A stretch of DNA of 64,000 bases from Henricia sp. BOLD:AAB3569 (taxonomy: Eukaryota > Echinodermata > Asteroidea > Spinulosida > Echinasteridae), in contig JBBELK010000994.1 in the NCBI GenBank assembly GCA_037783545.1, positions 124,001-188,000 on the forward strand, written 5' to 3'. Position numbers and translations under genes: made by a program. The notes beneath the pieces are model-generated. The model was not told the origin of the DNA and ran no database searches. It saw only the letters and a program-made list of their open reading frames with translations. Within the stretch, counting starts at the first letter, position 1; every line of letters starts with the position of its first letter. Positions 10,193 to 47,780 of the stretch are shown here, one piece after another.

Positions 10193-10264
10193 GGTCCCAT
10201 GGTGTAATGGTTAGCACTCGAGACTTTAAATCTCGCGATCCGATTTCAAATCTCGGTGGGACCT
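10193..10264 (+). tRNA. tRNA-Gln-like with TTA anticodon (putative ochre suppressor)
   Basis: Class X, tail c. Anticodon TTA at 10226-10228 arises from TTG by G36 to A. Private T52 weakens the T stem (T52:C60). A UUA anticodon would pair with the stop codon UAA. First of 14 such genes. Confidence 0.8.
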
Positions 10265-10369
10265 TGTACGATTCTCAATTTTGTGTGAGTGGTTTACTGA
10301 AATGTTTTCGGTTAACTTCTAAATTTTATATGTTCCAGCTACAACTGCTTGGTGATCATAGGTATGTCT

Positions 10370-10441
10370 GGTCCCGTTGTGTAACGGTTAGCACTCGAGA
10401 GTCTGAATCTCGCGATCCGAGTTCAAATCTCGGTGGGACCT
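10370..10441 (+). tRNA. tRNA-Gln (CTG)
   Basis: Class Q10, tail i. Confidence 0.82.
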
Positions 10442-10544
10442 TGTATGGGTCAGTCATTTGTGCAGGTTCTTTACTGCAATGTCTTTTATTAACTTCTACA
10501 TTCTATATATTCTAGCTACAAGGGGTTGATTAAATAGTATGACT

Positions 10545-10616
10545 GGTCCCATGGTGTAATGGTTAGCACTCGAGACTTTGAATCTCGCGATCCGAGTTCA
10601 TATTTCGGTGGGACCT
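10545..10616 (+). tRNA. tRNA-Gln (TTG)
   Basis: Class U4, tail f. T60 wobble-pairs with G52. Confidence 0.85.
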
Positions 10617-10721
10617 TGTACTATTTTAACCTTTGTGTGAGTGGTATACTGAAATGTTTTCGGTTAACTTCTAGATTTGATATATTCTAGTTACAACTGC
10701 TTGGTGTGCAAAAGCATGACT

Positions 10722-10793
10722 GGTCCCATGGTGTAACGGTTAGCACTCGAGACTCTGAATCTCGCGATCCGAGTTCAAATCTCGGTGGGACCT
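10722..10793 (+). tRNA. tRNA-Gln (CTG)
   Basis: Class Q1, tail b. Confidence 0.93.
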
Positions 10794-10896
10794 TGTATGG
10801 GTCAGTCTTTTGTGCAGGTTCTTTACTGCAATGTCTTTTATTAACTTCTACATTTTATATATTCTAGCTACAAGGGGTTGATGAAATGGTATGACT

Positions 10897-10968
10897 GGTC
10901 CCATGGTGTAATGGTTAGCACTCGAGACTTTGAATCTCGCGATCCGAGTTCAAATCTCGGTGGGACCT
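10897..10968 (+). tRNA. tRNA-Gln (TTG)
   Basis: Class U1, tail g. Confidence 0.92.
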
Positions 10969-11073
10969 TGTACGATTTAACCTTTGTGTGAGCTGTTTAC
11001 TCCAATTTTTTTAGGTTAACTTGTAGATTTAATATATTCCAGTTACAACTGCTTGGTGTGCAAAAGCATGACT

Positions 11074-11145
11074 GGTCACATGGTGTAACGGTTAGCACTA
11101 GACACTCTGAATCTCGCAATCCGAGTTCAAATCTTGGTGGGACCT
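11074..11145 (+). tRNA. tRNA-Gln (CTG), degenerate stems
   Basis: Class Q8, tail h. Confidence 0.62.
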
Positions 11146-11250
11146 TGTGCGATTCTCAATTTTGTGTGAGTGGTTTACTGAAATGTTTTCGGTTAACTTC
11201 TAAATTTTATATATTCCAGCTACAACTGCTTGGTGGTCATAGGTATGACT

Positions 11251-11322
11251 GGTCCCGTGGTGTAACGGTTAGCACTCGAGACTCTGAATCTCGCGATCCG
11301 AGTTCAAATCTCGGTGGGACCT
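11251..11322 (+). tRNA. tRNA-Gln (CTG)
   Basis: Class Q2, tail j. Confidence 0.9.
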
Positions 11323-11426
11323 TGTATGGGTCAGTCCTTTGTGCAGGTTCTTTACTGAAATGTCTTTTTATTAACTTCTACATTTTATATATTCTAGCTA
11401 CAAGGGGTTGATGAAATGGTATGACT

Positions 11427-11498
11427 GGTCACATGGTGTAATGGTTAGCACTCGAGACTTTGAATCTCGCGATCCGAGTTCAAATCTCGGTGGGACCT
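11427..11498 (+). tRNA. tRNA-Gln (TTG)
   Basis: Class U2, tail k. Confidence 0.84.
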
Positions 11499-11603
11499 TG
11501 TACTATGTTAACGTTTGTGTGAGTGGTTTACTGAAATGTTTTAGGTTAACTTTTAGATTTGATATATTCTAGTTACAACTGCTTGGTGTGCAAAAGCATG
11601 ACT

Positions 11604-11675
11604 GGTCCCATGGTGTAACGGTTAGCACTCGAGACTCTGAATCTCGCGATCCGAGTTCAAATCTCGGTGGGACCT
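11604..11675 (+). tRNA. tRNA-Gln (CTG)
   Basis: Class Q1, tail a. Confidence 0.93.
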
Positions 11676-11773
11676 TGTACGATTTTGTGTGAGTGGTTTA
11701 CTGAAATGTTTTCGGTTAACTTCTAAATTTTATATATTCCAGCTACAACTGCTTGGTGGTCATAAGTATGACT

Positions 11774-11845
11774 GGTCCCGTGGTGTAACGGTTAGCACTC
11801 GAAACTCTGAATCTCGCCATCCGAGTTCAAATCTCGGTGGGACCT
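11774..11845 (+). tRNA. tRNA-Gln (CTG)
   Basis: Class Q3, tail b. Confidence 0.84.
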
Positions 11846-11948
11846 TGTATGGGTCAGTCTTTTGTGCAGGTTCTTTACTGCAATGTCTTTTATTAACTTC
11901 TACATTTTATATATTCTAGCTACAAGGGGTTGATGAAATGGTATGACT

Positions 11949-11996
11949 GGTCCCATGGTATAATGGTTAGCACTCGAGGCTTTGAATCTGGCGATC
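11949..11996 (+). pseudogene. Truncated tRNA-Gln (TTG), class P
   Basis: Class P. Confidence 0.9.
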
Positions 11997-12094
11997 TTTT
12001 CCCTTTGTGTGAGCGGTTTACTCCAATTTTGTTCGGTTAACTTCTAGATTTTATATATTCCAGTTACAACTGCTTGGTGTGCAAAAGCATGACT

Positions 12095-12166
12095 GGTCCC
12101 ATGGTTTAACGGTTAGCACTCGAGACTCTGAATCTCGCAATCCGAGTTCAAATCTCGGTGGGACCT
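12095..12166 (+). tRNA. tRNA-Gln (CTG)
   Basis: Class Q4, tail c. Confidence 0.85.
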
Positions 12167-12271
12167 TGTACGATTCTCAATTTTGTGTGAGTGGTTTACT
12201 GACATGATTTCGGTTAACTTCTAAATTTTATATATTCCAGCTACAACTGCTTGGTGGTCATAGGTATGACT

Positions 12272-12343
12272 GGTCCCGTGGTGTAACGGTTAGCACTCGA
12301 GACTCTGAATCTCGCGATCCGAGTTCAAATCTCGGTGGGACCT
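12272..12343 (+). tRNA. tRNA-Gln (CTG)
   Basis: Class Q2, tail d. Confidence 0.9.
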
Positions 12344-12448
12344 TGTAGTATTTATACCTTTGTGTGAGTGGTTTACTGAAATGTTTTCGGATAACTTCTA
12401 GATTTGATATATTTTAGTTACAACTGCTTGGTGTACAAAAGCATGACT

Positions 12449-12520
12449 GGTCCCATGGTGTAACGGTTAGCACTCGAGACTCTGAATCTCGCGATCCGAG
12501 TTCAAATCTCGGTGGGACCT
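12449..12520 (+). tRNA. tRNA-Gln (CTG)
   Basis: Class Q1, tail e. Confidence 0.93.
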
Positions 12521-12623
12521 TGTATAGGTCAGGCTTTTGTGCAGGTTCTTTACTGCAATGTCTTTTATTAACTTCTACATTTTATATATTCTAGCTACAA
12601 GGGGTTGATTAAATGGTATGACT

Positions 12624-12695
12624 GGTCCCATGGTGTAACGGTTAGCACTCGAGACTCTGAATCTCGCAATCCGAGTTTAAATCTCGGTGGGACCT
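12624..12695 (+). tRNA. tRNA-Gln (CTG), box B mutated
   Basis: Class Q5, tail b. Confidence 0.7.
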
Positions 12696-12806
12696 TGTAT
12701 GGGTCAGTCTTTTGTGCAGGTTCTTTACTGCAATGTCTTTTATTAACTTCTAAATTTGATATATTCCATAACCAGCTACAACTGCTTGGTGGTCATAGGG
12801 ATGACT

Positions 12807-12878
12807 GGTCCCGTGGTGTAACGGTTAGCACTCGAGACTCTGAATCTCGCGATCCGAGTTCAAATCTCGGTGGGACCT
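12807..12878 (+). tRNA. tRNA-Gln (CTG)
   Basis: Class Q2, tail b. Confidence 0.9.
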
Positions 12879-12981
12879 TGTATGGGTCAGTCTTTTGTGC
12901 AGGTTCTTTACTGCAATGTCTTTTATTAACTTCTACATTTTATATATTCTAGCTACAAGGGGTTGATTAAATGGTATGACT

Positions 12982-13053
12982 GGTCCCATGGTGTAACGGT
13001 TAGCACTCGAGACTCTGAATCTCGCGATCCGAGTTCAAATATCGATGGGACCT
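12982..13053 (+). tRNA. tRNA-Gln (CTG), T stem disrupted
   Basis: Class Q13, tail a. Second and last copy of this class in the window. Confidence 0.72.
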
Positions 13054-13151
13054 TGTACGATTTTGTGTGAGTGGTTTACTGAAATGTTTTCGGTTAACTT
13101 CTAAATTTTATATATTCCAGCTACAACTGCTTGGTGTGCAAAAGCATGACT

Positions 13152-13223
13152 GGTCCCATGGTGTAACGGTTAGCACTCGAGACTCTGAATCTCGCACTCC
13201 GAGTTCAGATCTCGGTGGGACCT
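13152..13223 (+). tRNA. tRNA-Gln (CTG)
   Basis: Class Q9, tail c. Confidence 0.87.
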
Positions 13224-13328
13224 TGTACGATTCTCAATTTTGTGTGAGTGGTTTACTGAAATGTTTTCGGTTAACTTCTAAATTTTATATGTTCCAGCTA
13301 CAACTGCTTGGTGATCATAGGTATGTCT

Positions 13329-13400
13329 GGTCCCGTTGTGTAACGGTTAGCACTCGAGAGTCTGAATCTCGCGATCCGAGTTCAAATCTCGGTGGGACCT
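13329..13400 (+). tRNA. tRNA-Gln (CTG)
   Basis: Class Q10, tail i. Confidence 0.82.
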
Positions 13401-13503
13401 TGTATGGGTCAGTCATTTGTGCAGGTTCTTTACTGCAATGTCTTTTATTAACTTCTACATTCTATATATTCTAGCTACAAGGGGTTGATTAAATAGTATG
13501 ACT

Positions 13504-13575
13504 GGTCCCATGGTGTAATGGTTAGCACTCGAGACTTTGAATCTCGCGATCCGAGTTCATATTTCGGTGGGACCT
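13504..13575 (+). tRNA. tRNA-Gln (TTG)
   Basis: Class U4, tail f. Confidence 0.85.
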
Positions 13576-13680
13576 TGTACTATTTTAACCTTTGTGTGAG
13601 TGGTATACTGAAATGTTTTCGGTTAACTTCTAGATTTGATATATTCTAGTTACAACTGCTTGGTGTGCAAAAGCATGACT

Positions 13681-13752
13681 GGTCCCATGGTGTAACGGTT
13701 AGCACTCGAGACTCTGAATCTCGCGATCCGAGTTCAAATCTCGGTGGGACCT
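13681..13752 (+). tRNA. tRNA-Gln (CTG)
   Basis: Class Q1, tail b. Confidence 0.93.
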
Positions 13753-13855
13753 TGTATGGGTCAGTCTTTTGTGCAGGTTCTTTACTGCAATGTCTTTTAT
13801 TAACTTCTACATTTTATATATTCTAGCTACAAGGGGTTGATGAAATGGTATGACT

Positions 13856-13927
13856 GGTCCCATGGTGTAATGGTTAGCACTCGAGACTTTGAATCTCGCG
13901 ATCCGAGTTCAAATCTCGGTGGGACCT
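13856..13927 (+). tRNA. tRNA-Gln (TTG)
   Basis: Class U1, tail g. Confidence 0.92.
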
Positions 13928-14032
13928 TGTACGATTTAACCTTTGTGTGAGCTGTTTACTCCAATTTTTTTAGGTTAACTTGTAGATTTAATATATTCCA
14001 GTTACAACTGCTTGGTGTGCAAAAGCATGACT

Positions 14033-14104
14033 GGTCACATGGTGTAACGGTTAGCACTAGACACTCTGAATCTCGCAATCCGAGTTCAAATCTTGGTGGG
14101 ACCT
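14033..14104 (+). tRNA. tRNA-Gln (CTG), degenerate stems
   Basis: Class Q8, tail h. Confidence 0.62.
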
Positions 14105-14209
14105 TGTGCGATTCTCAATTTTGTGTGAGTGGTTTACTGAAATGTTTTCGGTTAACTTCTAAATTTTATATATTCCAGCTACAACTGCTTGGTGGTCATA
14201 GGTATGACT

Positions 14210-14281
14210 GGTCCCGTGGTGTAACGGTTAGCACTCGAGACTCTGAATCTCGCGATCCGAGTTCAAATCTCGGTGGGACCT
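14210..14281 (+). tRNA. tRNA-Gln (CTG)
   Basis: Class Q2, tail j. Confidence 0.9.
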
Positions 14282-14385
14282 TGTATGGGTCAGTCCTTTG
14301 TGCAGGTTCTTTACTGAAATGTCTTTTTATTAACTTCTACATTTTATATATTCTAGCTACAAGGGGTTGATGAAATGGTATGACT

Positions 14386-14457
14386 GGTCACATGGTGTAA
14401 TGGTTAGCACTCGAGACTTTGAATCTCGCGATCCGAGTTCAAATCTCGGTGGGACCT
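14386..14457 (+). tRNA. tRNA-Gln (TTG)
   Basis: Class U2, tail k. Confidence 0.84.
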
Positions 14458-14562
14458 TGTACTATGTTAACGTTTGTGTGAGTGGTTTACTGAAATGTTT
14501 TAGGTTAACTTTTAGATTTGATATATTCTAGTTACAACTGCTTGGTGTGCAAAAGCATGACT

Positions 14563-14634
14563 GGTCCCATGGTGTAACGGTTAGCACTCGAGACTCTGAA
14601 TCTCGCGATCCGAGTTCAAATCTCGGTGGGACCT
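14563..14634 (+). tRNA. tRNA-Gln (CTG)
   Basis: Class Q1, tail a. Confidence 0.93.
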
Positions 14635-14732
14635 TGTACGATTTTGTGTGAGTGGTTTACTGAAATGTTTTCGGTTAACTTCTAAATTTTATATATTCCA
14701 GCTACAACTGCTTGGTGGTCATAAGTATGACT

Positions 14733-14804
14733 GGTCCCGTGGTGTAACGGTTAGCACTCGAAACTCTGAATCTCGCCATCCGAGTTCAAATCTCGGTGGG
14801 ACCT
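14733..14804 (+). tRNA. tRNA-Gln (CTG)
   Basis: Class Q3, tail b. Confidence 0.84.
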
Positions 14805-14907
14805 TGTATGGGTCAGTCTTTTGTGCAGGTTCTTTACTGCAATGTCTTTTATTAACTTCTACATTTTATATATTCTAGCTACAAGGGGTTGATGAAATGG
14901 TATGACT

Positions 14908-14955
14908 GGTCCCATGGTATAATGGTTAGCACTCGAGGCTTTGAATCTGGCGATC
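14908..14955 (+). pseudogene. Truncated tRNA-Gln (TTG), class P
   Basis: Class P. Confidence 0.9.
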
Positions 14956-15053
14956 TTTTCCCTTTGTGTGAGCGGTTTACTCCAATTTTGTTCGGTTAAC
15001 TTCTAGATTTTATATATTCCAGTTACAACTGCTTGGTGTGCAAAAGCATGACT

Positions 15054-15125
15054 GGTCCCATGGTTTAACGGTTAGCACTCGAGACTCTGAATCTCGCAAT
15101 CCGAGTTCAAATCTCGGTGGGACCT
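15054..15125 (+). tRNA. tRNA-Gln (CTG)
   Basis: Class Q4, tail c. Confidence 0.85.
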
Positions 15126-15230
15126 TGTACGATTCTCAATTTTGTGTGAGTGGTTTACTGACATGATTTCGGTTAACTTCTAAATTTTATATATTCCAGC
15201 TACAACTGCTTGGTGGTCATAGGTATGACT

Positions 15231-15302
15231 GGTCCCGTGGTGTAACGGTTAGCACTCGAGACTCTGAATCTCGCGATCCGAGTTCAAATCTCGGTGGGAC
15301 CT
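15231..15302 (+). tRNA. tRNA-Gln (CTG)
   Basis: Class Q2, tail d. Confidence 0.9.
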
Positions 15303-15407
15303 TGTAGTATTTATACCTTTGTGTGAGTGGTTTACTGAAATGTTTTCGGATAACTTCTAGATTTGATATATTTTAGTTACAACTGCTTGGTGTACAAAAG
15401 CATGACT

Positions 15408-15479
15408 GGTCCCATGGTGTAACGGTTAGCACTCGAGACTCTGAATCTCGCGATCCGAGTTCAAATCTCGGTGGGACCT
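15408..15479 (+). tRNA. tRNA-Gln (CTG)
   Basis: Class Q1, tail e. Confidence 0.93.
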
Positions 15480-15582
15480 TGTATAGGTCAGGCTTTTGTG
15501 CAGGTTCTTTACTGCAATGTCTTTTATTAACTTCTACATTTTATATATTCTAGCTACAAGGGGTTGTTTAAATGGTATGACT

Positions 15583-15654
15583 GGTCCCATGGTGTAACGG
15601 TTAGCACTCGAGACTCTGAATCTCGCAATCCGAGTTTAAATCTCGGTGGGACCT
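15583..15654 (+). tRNA. tRNA-Gln (CTG), box B mutated
   Basis: Class Q5, tail b. The 5' flank has GTTGTTTAAATGG, a variant shared only with 27055. Confidence 0.7.
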
Positions 15655-15765
15655 TGTATGGGTCAGTCTTTTGTGCAGGTTCTTTACTGCAATGTCTTTT
15701 ATTAACTTCTAAATTTGATATATTCCATAACCAGCTACAACTGCTTGGTGGTCATAGGGATGACT

Positions 15766-15837
15766 GGTCCCGTGGTGTAACGGTTAGCACTCGAGACTCT
15801 GAATCTCGCGATCCGAGTTCAAATCTCGGTGGGACCT
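15766..15837 (+). tRNA. tRNA-Gln (CTG)
   Basis: Class Q2, tail b. Confidence 0.9.
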
Positions 15838-15940
15838 TGTATGGGTCAGTCTTTTGTGCAGGTTCTTTACTGCAATGTCTTTTATTAACTTCTACATTTT
15901 ATATATTCTAGCTACAAGGGGTTGATTAAATGGTATGACT

Positions 15941-16012
15941 GGTCCCATGGTGTAATGGTTAGCACTCGAGACTTTAAATCTCGCGATCCGAGTTCAAATC
16001 TCGGTGGGACCT
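15941..16012 (+). tRNA. tRNA-Gln-like with TTA anticodon (putative ochre suppressor)
   Basis: Class X, tail c. Anticodon at 15974-15976. All stems, box A, box B and a T4 terminator are intact; it differs from U1 only at base 36. Confidence 0.87.
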
Positions 16013-16117
16013 TGTACGATTCTCAATTTTGTGTGAGTGGTTTACTGAAATGTTTTCGGTTAACTTCTAAATTTTATATGTTCCAGCTACAACTGCTTGG
16101 TGATCATAGGTATGTCT

Positions 16118-16189
16118 GGTCCCGTTGTGTAACGGTTAGCACTCGAGAGTCTGAATCTCGCGATCCGAGTTCAAATCTCGGTGGGACCT
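16118..16189 (+). tRNA. tRNA-Gln (CTG)
   Basis: Class Q10, tail i. Confidence 0.82.
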
Positions 16190-16292
16190 TGTATGGGTCA
16201 GTCATTTGTGCAGGTTCTTTACTGCAATGTCTTTTATTAACTTCTACATTCTATATATTCTAGCTACAAGGGGTTGATTAAATAGTATGACT

Positions 16293-16364
16293 GGTCCCAT
16301 GGTGTAATGGTTAGCACTCGAGACTTTGAATCTCGCGATCCGAGTTCATATCTCGGTGGGACCT
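16293..16364 (+). tRNA. tRNA-Gln (TTG)
   Basis: Class U3, tail f. Confidence 0.87.
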
Positions 16365-16469
16365 TGTACTATTTTAACCTTTGTGTGAGTGGTATACTGA
16401 AATGTTTTCGGTTAACTTCTAGATTTGATATATTCTAGTTACAACTGCTTGGTGTGCAAAAGCATGACT

Positions 16470-16541
16470 GGTCCCATGGTGTAACGGTTAGCACTCGAGA
16501 CTCTGAATCTCGCGATCCGAGTTCAAATCTCGGTGGGACCT
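16470..16541 (+). tRNA. tRNA-Gln (CTG)
   Basis: Class Q1, tail b. Confidence 0.93.
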
Positions 16542-16644
16542 TGTATGGGTCAGTCTTTTGTGCAGGTTCTTTACTGCAATGTCTTTTATTAACTTCTACA
16601 TTTTATATATTCTAGCTACAAGGGGTTGATGAAATGGTATGACT

Positions 16645-16716
16645 GGTCCCATGGTGTAATGGTTAGCACTCGAGACTTTGAATCTCGCGATCCGAGTTCA
16701 AATCTCGGTGGGACCT
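16645..16716 (+). tRNA. tRNA-Gln (TTG)
   Basis: Class U1, tail g. Confidence 0.92.
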
Positions 16717-16821
16717 TGTACGATTTAACCTTTGTGTGAGCTGTTTACTCCAATTTTGTTAGGTTAACTTGTAGATTTAATATATTCCAGTTACAACTGC
16801 TTGGTGTGCAAAAGCATGACT

Positions 16822-16893
16822 GGTCACATGGTGTAACGGTTAGCACTAGACACTCTGAATCTCGCAATCCGAGTTCAAATCTTGGTGGGACCT
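16822..16893 (+). tRNA. tRNA-Gln (CTG), degenerate stems
   Basis: Class Q8, tail h. Confidence 0.62.
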
Positions 16894-16998
16894 TGTGCGA
16901 TTCTCAATTTTGTGTGAGTGGTTTACTGAAATGTTTTCGGTTAACTTCTAAATTTTATATATTCCAGCTACAACTGCTTGGTGGTCATAGGTATGACT

Positions 16999-17070
16999 GG
17001 TCCCGTGGTGTAACGGTTAGCACTCGAGACTCTGAATCTCGCGATCCGAGTTCAAATCTCGGTGGGACCT
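16999..17070 (+). tRNA. tRNA-Gln (CTG)
   Basis: Class Q2, tail j. Confidence 0.9.
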
Positions 17071-17174
17071 TGTATGGGTCAGTCCTTTGTGCAGGTTCTT
17101 TACTGAAATGTCTTTTTATTAACTTCTACATTTTATATATTCTAGCTACAAGGGGTTGATGAAATGGTTTGACT

Positions 17175-17246
17175 GGTCACATGGTGTAATGGTTAGCACT
17201 CGAGACTTTGAATCTCGCGATCCGAGTTCAAATCTCGGTGGGACCT
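17175..17246 (+). tRNA. tRNA-Gln (TTG)
   Basis: Class U2, tail k. Confidence 0.84.
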
Positions 17247-17351
17247 TGTACTATGTTAACGTTTGTGTGAGTGGTTTTCTGAAATGTTTTAGGTTAACTT
17301 TTAGATTTGATATATTCTAGTTACAACTCCTTGGTGTGCAAAAGCATGACT

Positions 17352-17423
17352 GGTCCCATGGTGTAACGGTTAGCACTCGAGACTCTGAATCTCGCGATCC
17401 GAGTTCAAATCTCGGTGGGACCT
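17352..17423 (+). tRNA. tRNA-Gln (CTG)
   Basis: Class Q1, tail a. Confidence 0.93.
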
Positions 17424-17521
17424 TGTACGATTTTGTGTGAGTGGTTTACTGAAATGTTTTCGGTTAACTTCTAAATTTTATATATTCCAGCTACAACTGC
17501 TTGGTGGTCATAAGTATGACT

Positions 17522-17593
17522 GGTCCCGTGGTGTAACGGTTAGCACTCGAAACTCTGAATCTCGCCATCCGAGTTCAAATCTCGGTGGGACCT
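17522..17593 (+). tRNA. tRNA-Gln (CTG)
   Basis: Class Q3, tail b. Confidence 0.84.
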
Positions 17594-17696
17594 TGTATGG
17601 GTCAGTCTTTTGTGCAGGTTCTTTACTGCAATGTCTTTTATTAACTTCTACATTTTATATATTCTAGCTACAAGGGGTTGATGAAATGGTATGACT

Positions 17697-17744
17697 GGTC
17701 CCATGGTATAATGGTTAGCACTCGAGGCTTTGAATCTGGCGATC
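17697..17744 (+). pseudogene. Truncated tRNA-Gln (TTG), class P
   Basis: Class P. Confidence 0.9.
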
Positions 17745-17842
17745 TTTTCCCTTTGTGTGAGCGGTTTACTCCAATTTTGTTCGGTTAACTTCTAGATTTT
17801 ATATATTCCAGTTACAACTGCTTGGTGTGCAAAAGCATGACT

Positions 17843-17914
17843 GGTCCCATGGTTTAACGGTTAGCACTCGAGACTCTGAATCTCGCAATCCGAGTTCAAA
17901 TCTCGGTGGGACCT
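17843..17914 (+). tRNA. tRNA-Gln (CTG)
   Basis: Class Q4, tail c. Confidence 0.85.
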
Positions 17915-18019
17915 TGTACGATTCTCAATTTTGTGTGAGTGGTTTACTGACATGATTTCGGTTAACTTCTAAATTTTATATATTCCAGCTACAACTGCTT
18001 GGTGGTCATAGGTATGACT

Positions 18020-18091
18020 GGTCCCGTGGTGTAACGGTTAGCACTCGAGACTCTGAATCTCGCGATCCGAGTTCAAATCTCGGTGGGACCT
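18020..18091 (+). tRNA. tRNA-Gln (CTG)
   Basis: Class Q2, tail d. Confidence 0.9.
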
Positions 18092-19573: not shown

Positions 19574-19581
19574 GCATGACT

Positions 19582-37206: not shown

Positions 37207-37254
37207 GGTCCCATGGTATAATGGTTAGCACTCGAGGCTTTGAATCTGGCGATC
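37207..37254 (+). pseudogene. Truncated tRNA-Gln (TTG), class P
   Basis: Class P. Confidence 0.9.
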
Positions 37255-37352
37255 TTTTCCCTTTGTGTGAGCGGTTTACTCCAATTTTGTTCGGTTAACT
37301 TCTAGATTTTATATATTCCAGTTACAACTGCTTGGTGTGCAAAAGCATGACT

Positions 37353-37424
37353 GGTCCCATGGTTTAACGGTTAGCACTCGAGACTCTGAATCTCGCAATC
37401 CGAGTTCAAATCTCGGTGGGACCT
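37353..37424 (+). tRNA. tRNA-Gln (CTG)
   Basis: Class Q4, tail c. Confidence 0.85.
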
Positions 37425-37529
37425 TGTACGATTCTCAATTTTGTGTGAGTGGTTTACTGACATGATTTCGGTTAACTTCTAAATTTTATATATTCCAGCT
37501 ACAACTGCTTGGTGGTCATAGGTATGACT

Positions 37530-37601
37530 GGTCCCGTGGTGTAACGGTTAGCACTCGAGACTCTGAATCTCGCGATCCGAGTTCAAATCTCGGTGGGACC
37601 T
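37530..37601 (+). tRNA. tRNA-Gln (CTG)
   Basis: Class Q2, tail d. Confidence 0.9.
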
Positions 37602-37706
37602 TGTAGTATTTATACCTTTGTGTGAGTGGTTTACTGAAATGTTTTCGGATAACTTCTAGATTTGATATATTTTAGTTACAACTGCTTGGTGTACAAAAGC
37701 ATGACT

Positions 37707-37778
37707 GGTCCCATGGTGTAACGGTTAGCACTCGAGACTCTGAATCTCGCGATCCGAGTTCAAATCTCGGTGGGACCT
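37707..37778 (+). tRNA. tRNA-Gln (CTG)
   Basis: Class Q1, tail e. Confidence 0.93.
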
Positions 37779-37881
37779 TGTATAGGTCAGGCTTTTGTGC
37801 AGGTTCTTTACTGCAATGTCTTTTATTAACTTCTACATTTTATATATTCTAGCTACAAGGGGTTGATTAAATGGTATGACT

Positions 37882-37953
37882 GGTCCCATGGTGTAACGGT
37901 TAGCACTCGAGACTCTGAATCTCGCAATCCGAGTTTAAATCTCGGTGGGACCT
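37882..37953 (+). tRNA. tRNA-Gln (CTG), box B mutated
   Basis: Class Q5, tail b. Confidence 0.7.
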
Positions 37954-38064
37954 TGTATGGGTCAGTCTTTTGTGCAGGTTCTTTACTGCAATGTCTTTTA
38001 TTAACTTCTAAATTTGATATATTCCATAACCAGCTACAACTGCTTGGTGGTCATAGGGATGACT

Positions 38065-38136
38065 GGTCCCGTGGTGTAACGGTTAGCACTCGAGACTCTG
38101 AATCTCGCGATCCGAGTTCAAATCTCGGTGGGACCT
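38065..38136 (+). tRNA. tRNA-Gln (CTG)
   Basis: Class Q2, tail b. Confidence 0.9.
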
Positions 38137-38239
38137 TGTATGGGTCAGTCTTTTGTGCAGGTTCTTTACTGCAATGTCTTTTATTAACTTCTACATTTTA
38201 TATATTCTAGCTACAAGGGGTTGATTAAATGGTATGACT

Positions 38240-38311
38240 GGTCCCATGGTGTAATGGTTAGCACTCGAAACTTTAAATCTCGCGATCCGAGTTCAAATCT
38301 CGGTGGGACCT
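38240..38311 (+). tRNA. tRNA-Gln-like with TTA anticodon (putative ochre suppressor)
   Basis: Class X, tail c. Anticodon at 38273-38275. Private A30 gives an A30:C40 mismatch in the anticodon stem. Confidence 0.8.
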
Positions 38312-38416
38312 TGTACGATTCTCAATTTTGTGTGAGTGGTTTACTGAAATGTTTTCGGTTAACTTCTAAATTTTATATATTCCAGCTACAACTGCTTGGT
38401 GGTCATAAGTATGACT

Positions 38417-38488
38417 GGTCCCGTGGTGTAACGGTTAGCACTCGAAACTCTGAATCTCGCCATCCGAGTTCAAATCTCGGTGGGACCT
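38417..38488 (+). tRNA. tRNA-Gln (CTG)
   Basis: Class Q3, tail b. Confidence 0.84.
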
Positions 38489-38591
38489 TGTATGGGTCAG
38501 TCTTTTGTGCAGGTTCTTTACTGCAATGTCTTTTATTAACTTCTACATTTTATATATTCTAGCTACAAGGGGTTGATGAAATGGTATGACT

Positions 38592-38639
38592 GGTCCCATG
38601 GTGTAATGGTTAGCACTCGAGGCTTTGAATCTGGCGATC
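38592..38639 (+). pseudogene. Truncated tRNA-Gln (TTG), class P
   Basis: Class P with G12; followed by T5. Confidence 0.9.
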
Positions 38640-38737
38640 TTTTTCCTTTGTGTGAGCGGTTTACTCCAATTTTGTTCGGTTAAATTCTAGATTTGATATA
38701 TTCCAGTTACAACTGCTTGGTGTTCAAAAGCATGACT

Positions 38738-38809
38738 GGTCCCATGGTGTAACGGTTAGCACTCGAGACTCTGAATCTCGCAATCCGAGTTCAAATCTCG
38801 GTGGGACCT
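38738..38809 (+). tRNA. tRNA-Gln (CTG)
   Basis: Class Q6, tail c. Confidence 0.9.
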
Positions 38810-38914
38810 TGTACGATTCTCAATTTTGTGTGAGTGGTTTACTGAAATGATTTCGGTTAACTTCTAAATTTTATATATTCCAGCTACAACTGCTTGGTGG
38901 TCATAGGTATGACT

Positions 38915-38986
38915 GGTCCCGTGGTGTAACGGTTAGCACTCGAGACTCTGAATCTCGCGATCCGAGTTCAAATCTCAATGGGACCT
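38915..38986 (+). tRNA. tRNA-Gln (CTG), T stem disrupted
   Basis: Class Q11, tail l. Confidence 0.72.
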
Positions 38987-39091
38987 TGTAGTATTTTCAC
39001 CTTTGTGTGAGTGGTTTACTGAAATGTTTTCGGATAACTTCTAGATTTGATATATTCTAGTTACAACTGCTTGGTGTACAAAAGCATGACT

Positions 39092-39163
39092 GGTCCCATG
39101 GTGTAACGGTTAGCACTCGAGACTCTGAATCTCGCGATCCGAGTTCAAATCTCGGTGGGACCT
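39092..39163 (+). tRNA. tRNA-Gln (CTG)
   Basis: Class Q1, tail e. Confidence 0.93.
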
Positions 39164-39266
39164 TGTATAGGTCAGGCTTTTGTGCAGGTTCTTTACTGCA
39201 ATGTCTTTTATTAACTTCTACATTTTATATATTCTAGCTACAAGGGGTTGATTAAACGGTATGACT

Positions 39267-39338
39267 GGTCCCATGGTGTAACGGTTAGCACTCGAGACTC
39301 TGAATCTCGCAATCCGAGTTCAAATCTCGGTGGGACCT
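39267..39338 (+). tRNA. tRNA-Gln (CTG)
   Basis: Class Q6, tail b. Confidence 0.9.
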
Positions 39339-39449
39339 TGTATGGGTCAGTCTTTTGTGCAGGTTATTTACTGCAATGTCTTTTATTAACTTCTAAATTT
39401 TATATATTCCATAACCAGCTACAACTGCTTGGTGGTCATAGGGATGACT

Positions 39450-39521
39450 GGTCCCGTGGTGTAACGGTTAGCACTCGAGACTCTGAATCTCGCGATCCGA
39501 GTTCAAATCTCGGTGGGACCT
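39450..39521 (+). tRNA. tRNA-Gln (CTG)
   Basis: Class Q2, tail m. Confidence 0.9.
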
Positions 39522-39624
39522 TGTATGCGTCAGTCTTTTGTGCAGGTTCTTTACTGCAATGTATTTTATTAACTTCTACATTTTATATATTCTAGCTACA
39601 AGGGGTTGATGAAATGGTATGACT

Positions 39625-39696
39625 GGTCCCATGGTGTAATGGTTAGCACTCGAGACTTTAAATCTCGCGATCCGAGTTCAAATCTCGGTGGGACCT
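39625..39696 (+). tRNA. tRNA-Gln-like with TTA anticodon (putative ochre suppressor)
   Basis: Class X, tail c. Anticodon at 39658-39660; intact stems. Confidence 0.87.
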
Positions 39697-39801
39697 TGTA
39701 CGATTCTCAATTTTGTGTGAGTGGTTTACTGAAATGTTTTCGGTTAACTTCTAAATTTTATATGTTCCAGCTACAACTGCTTGGTGATCATAGGTATGTC
39801 T

Positions 39802-39873
39802 GGTCCCGTTGTGTAACGGTTAGCACTCGAGAGTCTGAATCTCGCGATCCGAGTTCAAATCTCGGTGGGACCT
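39802..39873 (+). tRNA. tRNA-Gln (CTG)
   Basis: Class Q10, tail i. Confidence 0.82.
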
Positions 39874-39976
39874 TGTATGGGTCAGTCATTTGTGCAGGTT
39901 CTTTACTGCAATGTCTTTTATTAACTTCTACATTCTATATATTCTAGCTACAAGGGGTTGATTAAATAGTATGACT

Positions 39977-40048
39977 GGTCCCATGGTGTAATGGTTAGCA
40001 CTCGAGACTTTGAATCTCGCGATCCGAGTTCATATTTCGGTGGGACCT
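39977..40048 (+). tRNA. tRNA-Gln (TTG)
   Basis: Class U4, tail f. Confidence 0.85.
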
Positions 40049-40153
40049 TGTACTATTTTAACCTTTGTGTGAGTGGTATACTGAAATGTTTTCGGTTAAC
40101 TTCTAGATTTGATATATTCTAGTTACAACTGCTTGGTGTGCAAAAGCATGACT

Positions 40154-40225
40154 GGTCCCATGGTGTAACGGTTAGCACTCGAGACTCTGAATCTCGCGAT
40201 CCGAGTTCAAATCTCGGTGGGACCT
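40154..40225 (+). tRNA. tRNA-Gln (CTG)
   Basis: Class Q1, tail b. Confidence 0.93.
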
Positions 40226-40328
40226 TGTATGGGTCAGTCTTTTGTGCAGGTTCTTTACTGCAATGTCTTTTATTAACTTCTACATTTTATATATTCTAGC
40301 TACAAGGGGTTGATGAAATGGTATGACT

Positions 40329-40400
40329 GGTCCCATGGTGTAATGGTTAGCACTCGAGACTTTGAATCTCGCGATCCGAGTTCAAATCTCGGTGGGACCT
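40329..40400 (+). tRNA. tRNA-Gln (TTG)
   Basis: Class U1, tail g. Confidence 0.92.
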
Positions 40401-40505
40401 TGTACGATTTAACCTTTGTGTGAGCTGTTTACTCCAATTTGTTTAGGTTAACTTGTAGATTTAATATATTCCAGTTACAACTGCTTGGTGTGCAAAAGCA
40501 TGACT

Positions 40506-40577
40506 GGTCACATGGTGTAACGGTTAGCACTAGACACTCTGAATCTCGCAATCCGAGTTCAAATCTTGGTGGGACCT
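40506..40577 (+). tRNA. tRNA-Gln (CTG), degenerate stems
   Basis: Class Q8, tail h. Confidence 0.62.
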
Positions 40578-40682
40578 TGTGCGATTCTCAATTTTGTGTG
40601 AGTGGTTTACTGAAATGTTTTCGGTTAACTTCTAAATTTTATATATTCCAGCTACAACTGCTTGGTGGTCATAGGTATGACT

Positions 40683-40754
40683 GGTCCCGTGGTGTAACGG
40701 TTAGCACTCGAGACTCTGAATCTCGCGATCCGAGTTCAAATCTCGGTGGGACCT
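40683..40754 (+). tRNA. tRNA-Gln (CTG)
   Basis: Class Q2, tail j. Confidence 0.9.
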
Positions 40755-40858
40755 TGTATGGGTCAGTCCTTTGTGCAGGTTCTTTACTGAAATGTCTTTT
40801 TATTAACTTCTACATTTTATATATTCTAGCTACAAGGGGTTGATGAAATGGTATGACT

Positions 40859-40930
40859 GGTCACATGGTGTAATGGTTAGCACTCGAGACTTTGAATCTC
40901 GCGATCCGAGTTCAAATCTCGGTGGGACCT
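40859..40930 (+). tRNA. tRNA-Gln (TTG)
   Basis: Class U2, tail k. Confidence 0.84.
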
Positions 40931-41035
40931 TGTACTATGTTAACGTTTGTGTGAGTGGTTTACTGAAATGTTTTAGGTTAACTTTTAGATTTGATATATT
41001 CTAGTTACAACTGCTTGGTGTGCAAAAGCATGACT

Positions 41036-41107
41036 GGTCCCATGGTGTAACGGTTAGCACTCGAGACTCTGAATCTCGCGATCCGAGTTCAAATCTCGGT
41101 GGGACCT
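41036..41107 (+). tRNA. tRNA-Gln (CTG)
   Basis: Class Q1, tail a. Confidence 0.93.
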
Positions 41108-41205
41108 TGTACGATTTTGTGTGAGTGGTTTACTGAAATGTTTTCGGTTAACTTCTAAATTTTATATATTCCAGCTACAACTGCTTGGTGGTCATAATTA
41201 TGACT

Positions 41206-41277
41206 GGTCCCGTGGTGTAACGGTTAGCACTCGAAACTCTGAATCTCGCCATCCGAGTTCAAATCTCGGTGGGACCT
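41206..41277 (+). tRNA. tRNA-Gln (CTG)
   Basis: Class Q3, tail b. Confidence 0.84.
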
Positions 41278-41380
41278 TGTATGGGTCAGTCTTTTGTGCA
41301 GGTTCTTTACTGCAATGTCTTTTATTAACTTCTACATTTTATATATTCTAGCTACAAGGGGTTGATGAAATGGTATGACT

Positions 41381-41428
41381 GGTCCCATGGTATAATGGTT
41401 AGCACTCGAGGCTTTGAATCTGGCGATC
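41381..41428 (+). pseudogene. Truncated tRNA-Gln (TTG), class P
   Basis: Class P. Confidence 0.9.
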
Positions 41429-41526
41429 TTTTCCCTTTGTGTGAGCGGTTTACTCCAATTTTGTTCGGTTAACTTCTAGATTTTATATATTCCAGTTACA
41501 ACTGCTTGGTGTGCAAAAGCATGACT

Positions 41527-41598
41527 GGTCCCATGGTTTAACGGTTAGCACTCGAGACTCTGAATCTCGCAATCCGAGTTCAAATCTCGGTGGGACCT
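41527..41598 (+). tRNA. tRNA-Gln (CTG)
   Basis: Class Q4, tail c. Confidence 0.85.
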
Positions 41599-41703
41599 TG
41601 TACGATTCTCAATTTTGTGTGAGTGGTTTACTGACATGATTTCGGTTAACTTCTAAATTTTATATATTCCAGCTACAACTGCTTGGTGGTCATAGGTATG
41701 ACT

Positions 41704-41775
41704 GGTCCCGTGGTGTAACGGTTAGCACTCGAGACTCTGAATCTCGCGATCCGAGTTCAAATCTCGGTGGGACCT
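41704..41775 (+). tRNA. tRNA-Gln (CTG)
   Basis: Class Q2, tail d. Confidence 0.9.
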
Positions 41776-41880
41776 TGTAGTATTTATACCTTTGTGTGAG
41801 TGGTTTACTGAAATGTTTTCGGATAACTTCTAGATTTGATATATTTTAGTTACAACTGCTTGGTATACAAAAGCATGACT

Positions 41881-41952
41881 GGTCCCATGGTGTAACGGTT
41901 AGCACTCGAGACTCTGAATCTCGCGATCCGAGTTCAAATCTCGGTGGGACCT
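41881..41952 (+). tRNA. tRNA-Gln (CTG)
   Basis: Class Q1, tail e. Confidence 0.93.
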
Positions 41953-42055
41953 TGTATAGGTCAGGCTTTTGTGCAGGTTCTTTACTGCAATGTCTTTTAT
42001 TAACTTCTACATTTTATATATTCTAGCTACAAGGGGTTGATTAAATGGTATGACT

Positions 42056-42127
42056 GGTCCCATGGTGTAACGGTTAGCACTCGAGACTCTGAATCTCGCA
42101 ATCCGAGTTTAAATCTCGGTGGGACCT
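42056..42127 (+). tRNA. tRNA-Gln (CTG), box B mutated
   Basis: Class Q5, tail b. Confidence 0.7.
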
Positions 42128-42238
42128 TGTATGGGTCAGTCTTTTGTGCAGGTTCTTTACTGCAATGTCTTTTATTAACTTCTAAATTTGATATATTCCA
42201 TAACCAGCTACAACTGCTTGGTGGTCATAGGGATGACT

Positions 42239-42310
42239 GGTCCCGTGGTGTAACGGTTAGCACTCGAGACTCTGAATCTCGCGATCCGAGTTCAAATCTC
42301 GGTGGGACCT
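42239..42310 (+). tRNA. tRNA-Gln (CTG)
   Basis: Class Q2, tail b. Confidence 0.9.
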
Positions 42311-42413
42311 TGTATGGGTCAGTCTTTTGTGCAGGTTCTTTACTGCAATGTCTTTTATTAACTTCTACATTTTATATATTCTAGCTACAAGTGGTTGATT
42401 AAATGGTATGACT

Positions 42414-42485
42414 GGTCCCATGGTGTAATGGTTAGCACTCGAGACTTTAAATCTCGCGATCCGAGTTCAAATCTCGGTGGGACCT
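42414..42485 (+). tRNA. tRNA-Gln-like with TTA anticodon (putative ochre suppressor)
   Basis: Class X, tail c. Anticodon at 42447-42449; intact stems. Confidence 0.87.
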
Positions 42486-42590
42486 TGTACGATTCTCAAT
42501 TTTGTGTGAGTGGTTTACTGAAATGTTTTCGGTTAACTTCTAAATTGTATATGTTCCAGCTACAACTGCTTGGTGATCATAGGTATGTCT

Positions 42591-42662
42591 GGTCCCGTTG
42601 TGTAACGGTTAGCACTCGAGAGTCTGAATCTCGCGATCCGAGTTCAAATCTCGGTGGGACCT
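42591..42662 (+). tRNA. tRNA-Gln (CTG)
   Basis: Class Q10, tail i. Confidence 0.82.
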
Positions 42663-42765
42663 TGTATGGGTCAGTCATTTGTGCAGGTTCTTTACTGCAA
42701 TGTCTTTTATTAACTTCTACATTCTATATATTCTAGCTACAAGGGGTTGATTAAATAGTATGACT

Positions 42766-42837
42766 GGTCCCATGGTGTAACGGTTAGCACTCGAGACTCT
42801 GAATCTCGCGATCCGAGTTCAAATCTCGGTGGGACCT
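42766..42837 (+). tRNA. tRNA-Gln (CTG), fusion unit
   Basis: Class Q1, tail b. The 5' flank (TAAATAGTATGACT) is that of the U3/U4 slot, but the body and tail are those of the next Q1 slot: one unit was deleted by recombination at or near the gene start. The tail begins TTT, making a T4 across the discriminator. Confidence 0.9.
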
Positions 42838-42940
42838 TTTATGGGTCAGTCTTTTGTGCAGGTTCTTTACTGCAATGTCTTTTATTAACTTCTACATTTT
42901 ATATATTCTAGCTACAAGGGGTTGATGAAATGGTATGACT

Positions 42941-43012
42941 GGTCCCATGGTGTAATGGTTAGCACTCGAGACTTTGAATCTCGCGATCCGAGTTCAAATC
43001 TCGGTGGGACCT
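42941..43012 (+). tRNA. tRNA-Gln (TTG)
   Basis: Class U1, tail g. Confidence 0.92.
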
Positions 43013-43117
43013 TGTACGATTTAACCTTTGTGTGAGCTGTTTACTCCAATTTTTTTAGGTTAACTTGTAGATTTAATATATTCCAGTTACAACTGCTTGG
43101 TGTGCAAAAGCATGACT

Positions 43118-43189
43118 GGTCACATGGTGTAACGGTTAGCACTAGACACTCTGAATCTCGCAATCCGAGTTCAAATCTTGGTGGGACCT
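43118..43189 (+). tRNA. tRNA-Gln (CTG), degenerate stems
   Basis: Class Q8, tail h. Confidence 0.62.
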
Positions 43190-43294
43190 TGTGCGATTCT
43201 CAATTTTGTGTGAGTGGTTTACTGAAATGTTTTCGGTTAACTTCTAAATTGTATATATTCCAGCTACAACTGCTTGGTGGTCATAGGTATGACT

Positions 43295-43366
43295 GGTCCC
43301 GTGGTGTAACGGTTAGCACTCGAGACTCTGAATCTCGCGATCCGAGTTCAAATCTCGGTGGGACCT
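43295..43366 (+). tRNA. tRNA-Gln (CTG)
   Basis: Class Q2, tail j. Confidence 0.9.
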
Positions 43367-43470
43367 TGTATGGGTCAGTCCTTTGTGCAGGTTCTTTACT
43401 GAAATGTCTTTTTATTAACTTCTACATTTTATATATTCTAGCTACAAGGGGTTGATGAAATGGTATGACT

Positions 43471-43542
43471 GGTCACATGGTGTAATGGTTAGCACTCGAG
43501 ACTTTGAATCTCGCGATCCGAGTTCAAATCTCGGTGGGACCT
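43471..43542 (+). tRNA. tRNA-Gln (TTG)
   Basis: Class U2, tail k. Confidence 0.84.
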
Positions 43543-43647
43543 TGTACTATGTTAACGTTTGTGTGAGTGGTTTTCTGAAATGTTTTAGGTTAACTTTTAG
43601 ATTTGATATATTCTAGTTACAACTGCTTGGTGTGCAAAAGCATGACT

Positions 43648-43719
43648 GGTCCCATGGTGTAACGGTTAGCACTCGAGACTCTGAATCTCGCGATCCGAGT
43701 TCAAATCTCGGTGGGACCT
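43648..43719 (+). tRNA. tRNA-Gln (CTG)
   Basis: Class Q1, tail a. Confidence 0.93.
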
Positions 43720-43817
43720 TGTACGATTTTGTGTGAGTGGTTTACTGAAATGTTTTCGGTTAACTTCTAAATTTTATATATTCCAGCTACAACTGCTTGG
43801 TGGTCATAAGTATGACT

Positions 43818-43889
43818 GGTCCCGTGGTGTAACGGTTAGCACTCGAAACTCTGAATCTCGCCATCCGAGTTCAAATCTCGGTGGGACCT
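43818..43889 (+). tRNA. tRNA-Gln (CTG)
   Basis: Class Q3, tail b. Confidence 0.84.
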
Positions 43890-43992
43890 TGTATGGGTCA
43901 GTCTTTTGTGCAGGTTCTTTACTGCAATGTCTTTTATTAACTTCTACATTTTATATATTCTAGCTACAAGGGGTTGATGAAATGGTATGACT

Positions 43993-44040
43993 GGTCCCAT
44001 GGTATAATGGTTAGCACTCGAGGCTTTGAATCTGGCGATC
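43993..44040 (+). pseudogene. Truncated tRNA-Gln (TTG), class P
   Basis: Class P; last of the 17 copies. Confidence 0.9.
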
Positions 44041-44138
44041 TTTTCCCTTTGTGTGAGCGGTTTACTCCAATTTTGTTCGGTTAACTTCTAGATTTTATAT
44101 ATTCCAGTTACAACTGCTTGGTGTGCAAAAGCATGACT

Positions 44139-44210
44139 GGTCCCATGGTTTAACGGTTAGCACTCGAGACTCTGAATCTCGCAATCCGAGTTCAAATCTC
44201 GGTGGGACCT
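44139..44210 (+). tRNA. tRNA-Gln (CTG)
   Basis: Class Q4, tail c. Confidence 0.85.
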
Positions 44211-44315
44211 TGTACGATTCTCAATTTTGTGTGAGTGGTTTACTGACATGATTTCGGTTAACTTCTAAATTTTATATATTCCAGCTACAACTGCTTGGTG
44301 GTCATAGGTATGACT

Positions 44316-44387
44316 GGTCCCGTGGTGTAACGGTTAGCACTCGAGACTCTGAATCTCGCGATCCGAGTTCAAATCTCGGTGGGACCT
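44316..44387 (+). tRNA. tRNA-Gln (CTG)
   Basis: Class Q2, tail d. Confidence 0.9.
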
Positions 44388-44492
44388 TGTAGTATTTATA
44401 CCTTTGTGTGAGTGGTTTACTGAAATGTTTTCGGATAACTTCTAGATTTGATATATTTTAGTTAGAACTGCTTGGTGTACAAAAGCATGACT

Positions 44493-44564
44493 GGTCCCAT
44501 GGTGTAACGGTTAGCACTCGAGACTCTGAATCTCGCGATCCGAGTTCAAATCTCGGTGGGACCT
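44493..44564 (+). tRNA. tRNA-Gln (CTG)
   Basis: Class Q1, tail e. The spacer has GTTAGAACTG, shared only with 45380. Confidence 0.93.
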
Positions 44565-44667
44565 TGTATAGGTCAGGCTTTTGTGCAGGTTCTTTACTGC
44601 AATGTCTTTTATTAACTTCTAAATTTTATATATTCTAGCTACAAGGGGTTGATTAAATGGTATGACT

Positions 44668-44739
44668 GGTCCCATGGTGTAATGGTTAGCACTCGACACT
44701 CTGAATCTCGCAATCCGAGTTTAAATCTCGGTGGGACCT
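44668..44739 (+). tRNA. tRNA-Gln (CTG), box B mutated
   Basis: Class Q5, tail b, plus T16 and C30 (C30:C40 mismatch). Confidence 0.65.
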
Positions 44740-44850
44740 TGTATGGGTCAGTCTTTTGTGCAGGTTCTTTACTGCAATGTCTTTTATTAACTTCTAAATT
44801 TGATATATTCCATAACCAGCTACAACTGCTTGGTGGTCATAGGGATGACT

Positions 44851-44922
44851 GGTCCCGTGGTGTAACGGTTAGCACTCGAGACTCTGAATCTCGCGATCCG
44901 AGTTCAAATCTCGGTGGGACCT
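44851..44922 (+). tRNA. tRNA-Gln (CTG)
   Basis: Class Q2, tail b. Confidence 0.9.
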
Positions 44923-45025
44923 TGTATGGGTCAGTCTTTTGTGCAGGTTCTTTACTGCAATGTCTTTTATTAACTTCTACATTTTATATATTCTAGCTAC
45001 AAGGGGTTGATTAAATGGTATGACT

Positions 45026-45097
45026 GGTCCCATGGTGTAATGGTTAGCACTCGAGACTTTAAATCTCGCGATCCGAGTTCAAATCTCGGTGGGACCT
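45026..45097 (+). tRNA. tRNA-Gln-like with TTA anticodon (putative ochre suppressor)
   Basis: Class X. Anticodon at 45059-45061; intact stems. It is the only X gene with tail l, so its 3' side was exchanged. Confidence 0.86.
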
Positions 45098-47755: not shown

Positions 47756-47780
47756 GTGATTGGTGTGCAAAAGCATGACT

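Follow-up and report, generated by a model that had tools for sequence, protein, structure and literature searches.

The 64,000-nucleotide stretch of the sea star Henricia sp. analysed here (the window; positions 124001-188000 of contig JBBELK010000994.1, hereafter C994, within an assembly of 740,731,340 bp in 2104 contigs) carries fourteen tRNA-Gln genes whose TTA anticodon would pair with the ochre stop codon UAA. In our judgement these genes are probably passengers in a satellite-like tRNA array, in which one mutation was carried along by amplification in an animal that uses the standard genetic code. Observed directly are the sequences of the genes, the repeat slot that they share and the structure of the copies, a TTG anticodon in the same slot elsewhere and, in the genes sampled, the standard code.

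In the window ARAGORN placed 256 tRNA genes, every one of them on the plus strand (195 with a CTG, 47 with a TTG and 14 with a TTA anticodon), and the TTA genes, called as tRNA-Stop, start at exactly the positions at which a first-pass annotation of this DNA had reported them. The Rfam model RF00005 gave 257 matches (5 + 122 + 130), one of which, at 36332, lies beyond the ARAGORN set. Eleven of the fourteen TTA genes are identical to the commonest TTG gene but for G36A, which bears out the earlier statement that eleven copies otherwise match the TTG consensus, and their score of 68.2 bits is the highest among the 257 matches. The other three carry additional changes, two of them at gene position 52, which we take to be G53 in standard tRNA numbering, paired with C61 at the start of the B box. 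The individual genes are listed below.

10193..10264, plus strand: tRNA-Gln(TTA), damaged, extra change G52T (presumed G53, T stem / B box), 61.1 bits
15941..16012, plus strand: tRNA-Gln(TTA), otherwise TTG consensus, 68.2 bits
18730..18801, plus strand: tRNA-Gln(TTA), otherwise TTG consensus, 68.2 bits
20115..20186, plus strand: tRNA-Gln(TTA), otherwise TTG consensus, 68.2 bits
24624..24695, plus strand: tRNA-Gln(TTA), damaged, extra changes G52T and C70G, 51.9 bits
27413..27484, plus strand: tRNA-Gln(TTA), otherwise TTG consensus, 68.2 bits
30202..30273, plus strand: tRNA-Gln(TTA), otherwise TTG consensus, 68.2 bits
32122..32193, plus strand: tRNA-Gln(TTA), otherwise TTG consensus, 68.2 bits
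33507..33578, plus strand: tRNA-Gln(TTA), otherwise TTG consensus, 68.2 bits
35451..35522, plus strand: tRNA-Gln(TTA), otherwise TTG consensus, 68.2 bits
38240..38311, plus strand: tRNA-Gln(TTA), extra change G30A in the anticodon stem, 61 bits
39625..39696, plus strand: tRNA-Gln(TTA), otherwise TTG consensus, 68.2 bits
42414..42485, plus strand: tRNA-Gln(TTA), otherwise TTG consensus, 68.2 bits
45026..45097, plus strand: tRNA-Gln(TTA), otherwise TTG consensus, 68.2 bits, 3' flank unlike the other thirteen

The T4 terminators that had been reported are likewise present, with a run of four T downstream of all fourteen genes (at +15 to +18 in thirteen of them and at +8 to +11 in the gene at 45026). 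To judge from its differing 3' flank, the unit at 45026 is probably a recombinant that resulted from exchange within the array. The internal promoter boxes of the eleven otherwise unchanged genes equal those of the ordinary copies, provided that the boxes lie where we assume them to be. A damaged body, taken as the mark of a tRNA pseudogene, was seen in three of the fourteen genes and not in the other eleven; an intact body together with an anticodon that pairs with UAA, the make-up of an ochre suppressor, was found in eleven of the fourteen. In agreement with the first-pass annotation, most TTA copies are intact tRNA-Gln genes with an anticodon expected to pair with UAA.

All of these genes belong to a tandem array of head-to-tail units of about 177 bp, each composed of a tRNA gene and a spacer. 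Its window part measures 48 kb and the array extends to the left beyond the window. ARAGORN was also run on C994:1-124000 and on positions 2600001-2709417 of a second contig, C93, these two fetched stretches being all that was scanned of both contigs outside the window, and the array total amounted to 1217 genes. Superimposed on the monomers is a higher-order repeat, 2789 bp long and comprising 15 tRNA-Gln genes, in which sequence variants have been amplified together. Partial forms of this repeat are common; complete repeats with the exact label pattern occur three times in the window, starting at 14563, 23246 and 26035.

59..48398, plus strand: window part of the tandem tRNA-Gln array, 256 ARAGORN genes, monomers of about 177 bp
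C994:12325-172398: tRNA-Gln array, 878 genes (ARAGORN)
C93:2626025-2690113: tRNA-Gln array, 339 genes (ARAGORN)
14563..17351, plus strand: complete 2789-bp higher-order repeat with 15 tRNA-Gln genes, the TTA gene in slot 8
1607..1678, plus strand: the TTA repeat slot, still TTG (likely ancestral state)
45913..45984, plus strand: the TTA repeat slot, still TTG (likely ancestral state)

From one TTA gene to the next, the 13 spacings were 2789 bp in five cases and 1385 bp in three, with 5748, 4509, 2612, 1944 and 1920 bp occurring once each. All fourteen genes follow the same neighbour, slot 7. In total, 18 genes are placed after a slot 7 gene: the fourteen TTA genes, two TTG genes (1607 and 45913) and two CTG genes (5289 and 12982). 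Because TTG is found in this slot as well as in other TTG slots, it is the likely ancestor of the TTA slot. From this arrangement we infer that G36A probably arose once in the lineage seen in the window and was then copied along with the repeat. The proposal that TTA was made from TTG by a change at base 36 was thereby upheld as to the base, but it is best read as a single change in one slot and not as fourteen separate ones.

The course of events was probably the following. A single change of G36 to A would have occurred in one TTG-type gene within a giant tandem tRNA-Gln array, and the mutated gene would have held one slot of the 15-gene, 2789-bp repeat. Unequal exchange or local conversion would then have amplified this slot along with the slots around it, whether intact or decayed, and the amplification was presumably neutral. 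Net suppressor activity would be too small to do harm, be it that the array is mostly silent, that the TTA genes are diluted among about 1200 Gln genes or that eRF1 outcompetes their products. For any copies that are transcribed, charging and a weak reading of UAA are to be expected, as with the engineered tRNA-Gln in human cells considered below.

Slots with damaged bodies were multiplied in the same manner. Slot 13, the body of which is decayed, was present in 17 copies scoring 34.6-50.3 bits, 13 of them at or below 41 bits. Thirteen copies of slot 2 carry both G30A and G45C (43.2-50.7 bits), and C55T was found in 15 of the 20 copies of slot 6. The array multiplies broken bodies as often as the TTA slot, so that the multicopy state of the TTA genes gives no sign of selection. 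G36A is one of 14 variants that reach at least ten copies in the window. In a count of lineages over 1172 of the 1217 genes (35 that differ in length and 10 that are shifted were left out), it was represented by 22 copies in 5 flank lineages, and the 19 other G-to-A positions by 1-206 copies in 1-57 lineages; as a G-to-A change, G36A does not stand out. Nor were the TTA bodies better conserved than their flanks, variable sites numbering 3 of 72 in the tRNA, 5 of 160 upstream and 5 of 100 downstream (13 of the 14 units), a comparison in which fourteen recent copies give low power against weak selection. Across the three complete repeats 8 of 1080 tRNA positions were variable versus 8 of 1709 spacer positions (p 0.44). 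In a comparison based on clusters of similar flanks, the 12 largest clusters included 7 with greater variation in the tRNA than in the flank and 5 with the opposite result. The tRNA/spacer ratio obtained in this way was dropped as a test of selection, since clusters defined by flank similarity bias the flank divergence downwards.

Some observations weigh against passive copying as the full explanation. In slots 5, 7, 11 and 12 (18, 18, 11 and 12 copies, respectively) the tRNA is invariant and the spacers vary, with single-slot p values of 0.039, 0.14, 0.073 and 0.26, and selection may act on some parts of the array, or conversion may keep them uniform. The TTA class, moreover, is not simply rotting, with eleven of fourteen bodies unchanged and holding the top scores of the window. 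Finally, the strong activity of the human counterpart means that tolerance of these genes needs an explanation. A human tRNA-Gln edited to read UAA was a strongly active suppressor, and cells with this Gln-UAA tRNA had about 2-fold more ribosomes in 3' untranslated regions at UAA stops (PMC6379413). The inserted amino acid was verified for Trp and Gly suppressors, not for Gln, in the passages of that report which deal with it. Tetrahymena tRNA-Gln(CUA), on the other hand, was not recognised by a mammalian GlnRS (work cited in PMC5304391), which counts against charging. By analogy, the TTA genes could suppress UAA if transcribed, charging being plausible for the UUA and doubtful for the CUA anticodon.

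In the genes sampled, UAA and UAG are real stops and the code is the standard one. Two nearly identical eRF1 genes were found, and both copies have unchanged GTS, TASNIKS and YLCDNKF (YxCxxxF) motifs, the list of stop-recognition motifs being that given in PMC5304391.

C95:410359-412833: eRF1 gene
C254:1004082-1005070: eRF1 gene, nearly identical to the preceding one

The two loci may be haplotypes that were left unpurged, in which case copy counts would be affected as well. A first eRF1 candidate, on contig C1058, was discarded on reading as a protein that we presume to be Pelota-like. An animal source is in keeping with the eRF1, Pelota-like and histone sequences. Histone genes gave a second view of the code. 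After two of 19 examined ends had been dropped for want of a recognisable histone C-terminus, the 17 readable genes were found to stop at TAG (10), TAA (5) and TGA (2). Of 1124 first-look candidates 150 histone matches were scored, and inside stops were present in 3 of these, one each (2 TAA, 1 TGA), in one family only. Histone genes also form large tandem arrays in this assembly, at C835:229176-478626 (period of about 4.1 kb), in parts of C62:27548-988287 (about 2.4 kb on part of it) and at C375:927320-1143835.

Besides CTG and TTG, the anticodons called by ARAGORN among the 1217 array genes comprise 14 TTA, 8 CTA (amber), 3 CTC, 1 CTT and 1 ATG. The amber genes fall into two groups.

C994:64638, 64990, 66214, 67613 and 68837: five tRNA-Gln(CTA) genes, otherwise identical to the CTG consensus, 65 bits (Rfam)
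C994:98873, C994:100617 and C93:2663727: three tRNA-Gln(CTA) genes with G64T, 57.4 bits (Rfam)

The three G64T copies lie on two further flank types, and the amber copies overall on three flank types and two contigs. Their bodies are of the CTG type, which shows that amber and ochre copies had separate origins. Their flank types suggest up to three origins, a number that conversion tracts could lower. An exact-pattern search for TTA or CTA tRNA-Gln in the whole 740.7-Mb genome returned 21 places (13 TTA, 8 CTA), all of them in the two arrays, and a backwards control of the same pattern gave 0 matches; the exact pattern misses the fourteenth TTA gene (G30A) and would likewise miss any copies elsewhere with pattern differences. 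Genome-wide there are 444 occurrences of the exact CTG core (443 plus 1 on the opposite strand), 437 of these inside the two fetched stretches and 7 elsewhere, including three on contig C84. TTG genes with a different anticodon stem were found once on contig C577 and twice on C329, no search for array-type TTG genes elsewhere having been made. Such a small dispersed set of tRNA-Gln genes could serve translation without the array.

The other anticodon changes in tRNA-Gln bodies are at C994:113988, 117536, 119485 and 18081 and at C93:2689500 (CTC three times, CTT and ATG once each); if used, these tRNAs would misread Glu, Lys and His codons. Four ARAGORN calls of a TGA anticodon were rejected, as gene positions 34-36 read TTG and the change affects the stem base beside the loop. 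Ten TTT genes were shifted in position, and none was left after filtering on position and length.

Among the alternatives, low-level expression that is tolerated, with UAA read in a slightly leaky, ambiguous fashion and without benefit, would fit the intact gene structure of eleven of the fourteen copies, and the ribosome increase behind UAA stops in human Gln-UAA cells (PMC6379413) lends it plausibility. The ochre genes, however, make up just 14 of the 1217 array genes, and we regard this alternative as unlikely. The array, as a hypervariable one, might also act as a standing reservoir of intact ochre (11) and amber (5) genes, born more than once and amplified there, some of them expressed at a certain stage or in a certain tissue, where UAA and UAG would be partly ambiguous as glutamine in an animal that otherwise has the standard code. 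We hold this to be distinctly improbable; if true, the "ambiguous intermediate" that is assumed for stop-codon reassignment could be watched as it happens.

That the TTA genes are working natural suppressors, supplying a useful and regulated read-through of UAA as glutamine, has only a small probability in our view. The probable single origin by co-amplification, the lack of excess conservation, the standard eRF1 and the service of UAA as a stop in histone genes all argue against it, as does the confinement of TTA and CTA copies to the two arrays in the genome search, which was limited to the exact pattern. These arguments have to be set against eleven bodies unchanged but for G36A and followed by T4 runs, the efficient suppression by human tRNA-Gln(UUA) (PMC6379413) and the amber counterparts in the same genome.

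An artefact of assembly or base calling is very improbable. In its favour, long repeats are prone to such errors, a 273-bp satellite borders the arrays where two contigs end, and the near identity of the two eRF1 loci is a hint that haplotypes were not purged. Against this, the fourteen TTA copies represent 10 distinct contexts when flanks of 150 bp are considered and 14 distinct contexts with flanks of 1000 bp, and the amber copies stand on three other flank types and two contigs. Because the TTA copies occupy distinct flank contexts, base 36 was resolved separately in diverged copies. Reassignment of UAA (and UAG) to glutamine, the ciliate-like use raised in the first-pass annotation and favoured by the joint presence of UUA and CUA forms of tRNA-Gln as in ciliates (PMC5304391; PMC9858662), has next to no probability and was rejected for the sampled genes on the intact motifs of both eRF1 copies and the UAG, UAA and UGA ends of the 17 histone genes, with inside stops in so few of the histone matches.

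In the survey of PMC9858662, predicted Sup-tRNA(TTA) genes (tRNAscan-SE) are listed for 21.65% of the eukaryotes and are, in the passages devoted to them, never tied to an amino acid. The genes of the window share the TTA anticodon and differ in being fourteen copies, probably of one event, in a tRNA-Gln array that also has amber copies. Ciliate tRNA-Gln(UUA) and tRNA-Gln(CUA) read UAR as glutamine (PMC5304391; PMC9858662 citing Kuchino 1985). As in ciliates, Gln bodies with UUA and with CUA occur here in one genome, but eRF1 is standard, and UAA and UAG end the sampled histone genes. The engineered human tRNA-Gln(UAA) described in PMC6379413 is also an animal tRNA-Gln with a UAA-reading anticodon, although it was engineered and overexpressed, whereas the present genes stand in a genomic array. 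In several animals, tRNA genes are known to form large clusters of parallel copies that include pseudogenes and turn over fast (PMC2888827), and a human tRNA tandem repeat lies at 1q23.3 (PMC4041453). As far as these two accounts describe them, such clusters are, like the present array, parallel, tandem and subject to rapid turnover with pseudogenes mixed in; unlike them, the array comprises two stretches that together hold 1217 genes, all with the body of a single isotype, and has a higher-order repeat. A partial literature search turned up neither a study of this array nor one of an animal with multicopy ochre tRNA-Gln, and no description of a one-isotype array of this size holding intact ochre and amber tRNA-Gln side by side.

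Although suppressor tRNAs would be expected to do harm, two kinds of them, with several intact members, are present in this genome, and the array keeps producing new anticodons. The genome is a natural setting for testing how such tRNAs are tolerated in an animal, be it by silent chromatin, dilution among more than 1000 copies, poor charging or competition from eRF1. The tRNA half of a stop-to-glutamine reassignment appears to arise easily. If all copies are silent, surveys that count genes for "suppressor tRNAs" run the risk of including passenger mutations.

Searches with the tRNA pattern in collections of viral contigs and genome contigs gave no match, and Pfam searches with 10 flanking open reading frames gave three weak matches, none above the cut-off. 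Truncated tRNA-Gln copies that lack the 3' part were observed in the window at 574-621 and 46967-47028. The former sits within a spacing of 321 bp; this spacing recurs, and a truncated copy of the same kind probably recurs with it each time. The 273-bp satellite, with matches of 98% inside the satellite array, adjoins the tRNA arrays at C93:2690251-2709417 and C994:1-12200. Its presence at the right end of C93 and the left end of C994 suggests, short of proof, that the two contigs are neighbours. That they represent two haplotypes of one array is unsupported, the fetched outer flanks (right of C994, left of C93) sharing 6 short matches of at most 582 bases. At its right end the array is interrupted by non-array DNA, at about 47410-47760 and at 48130-48300 of the window, the latter segment resembling by eye what we take to be the tail of a short interspersed element.

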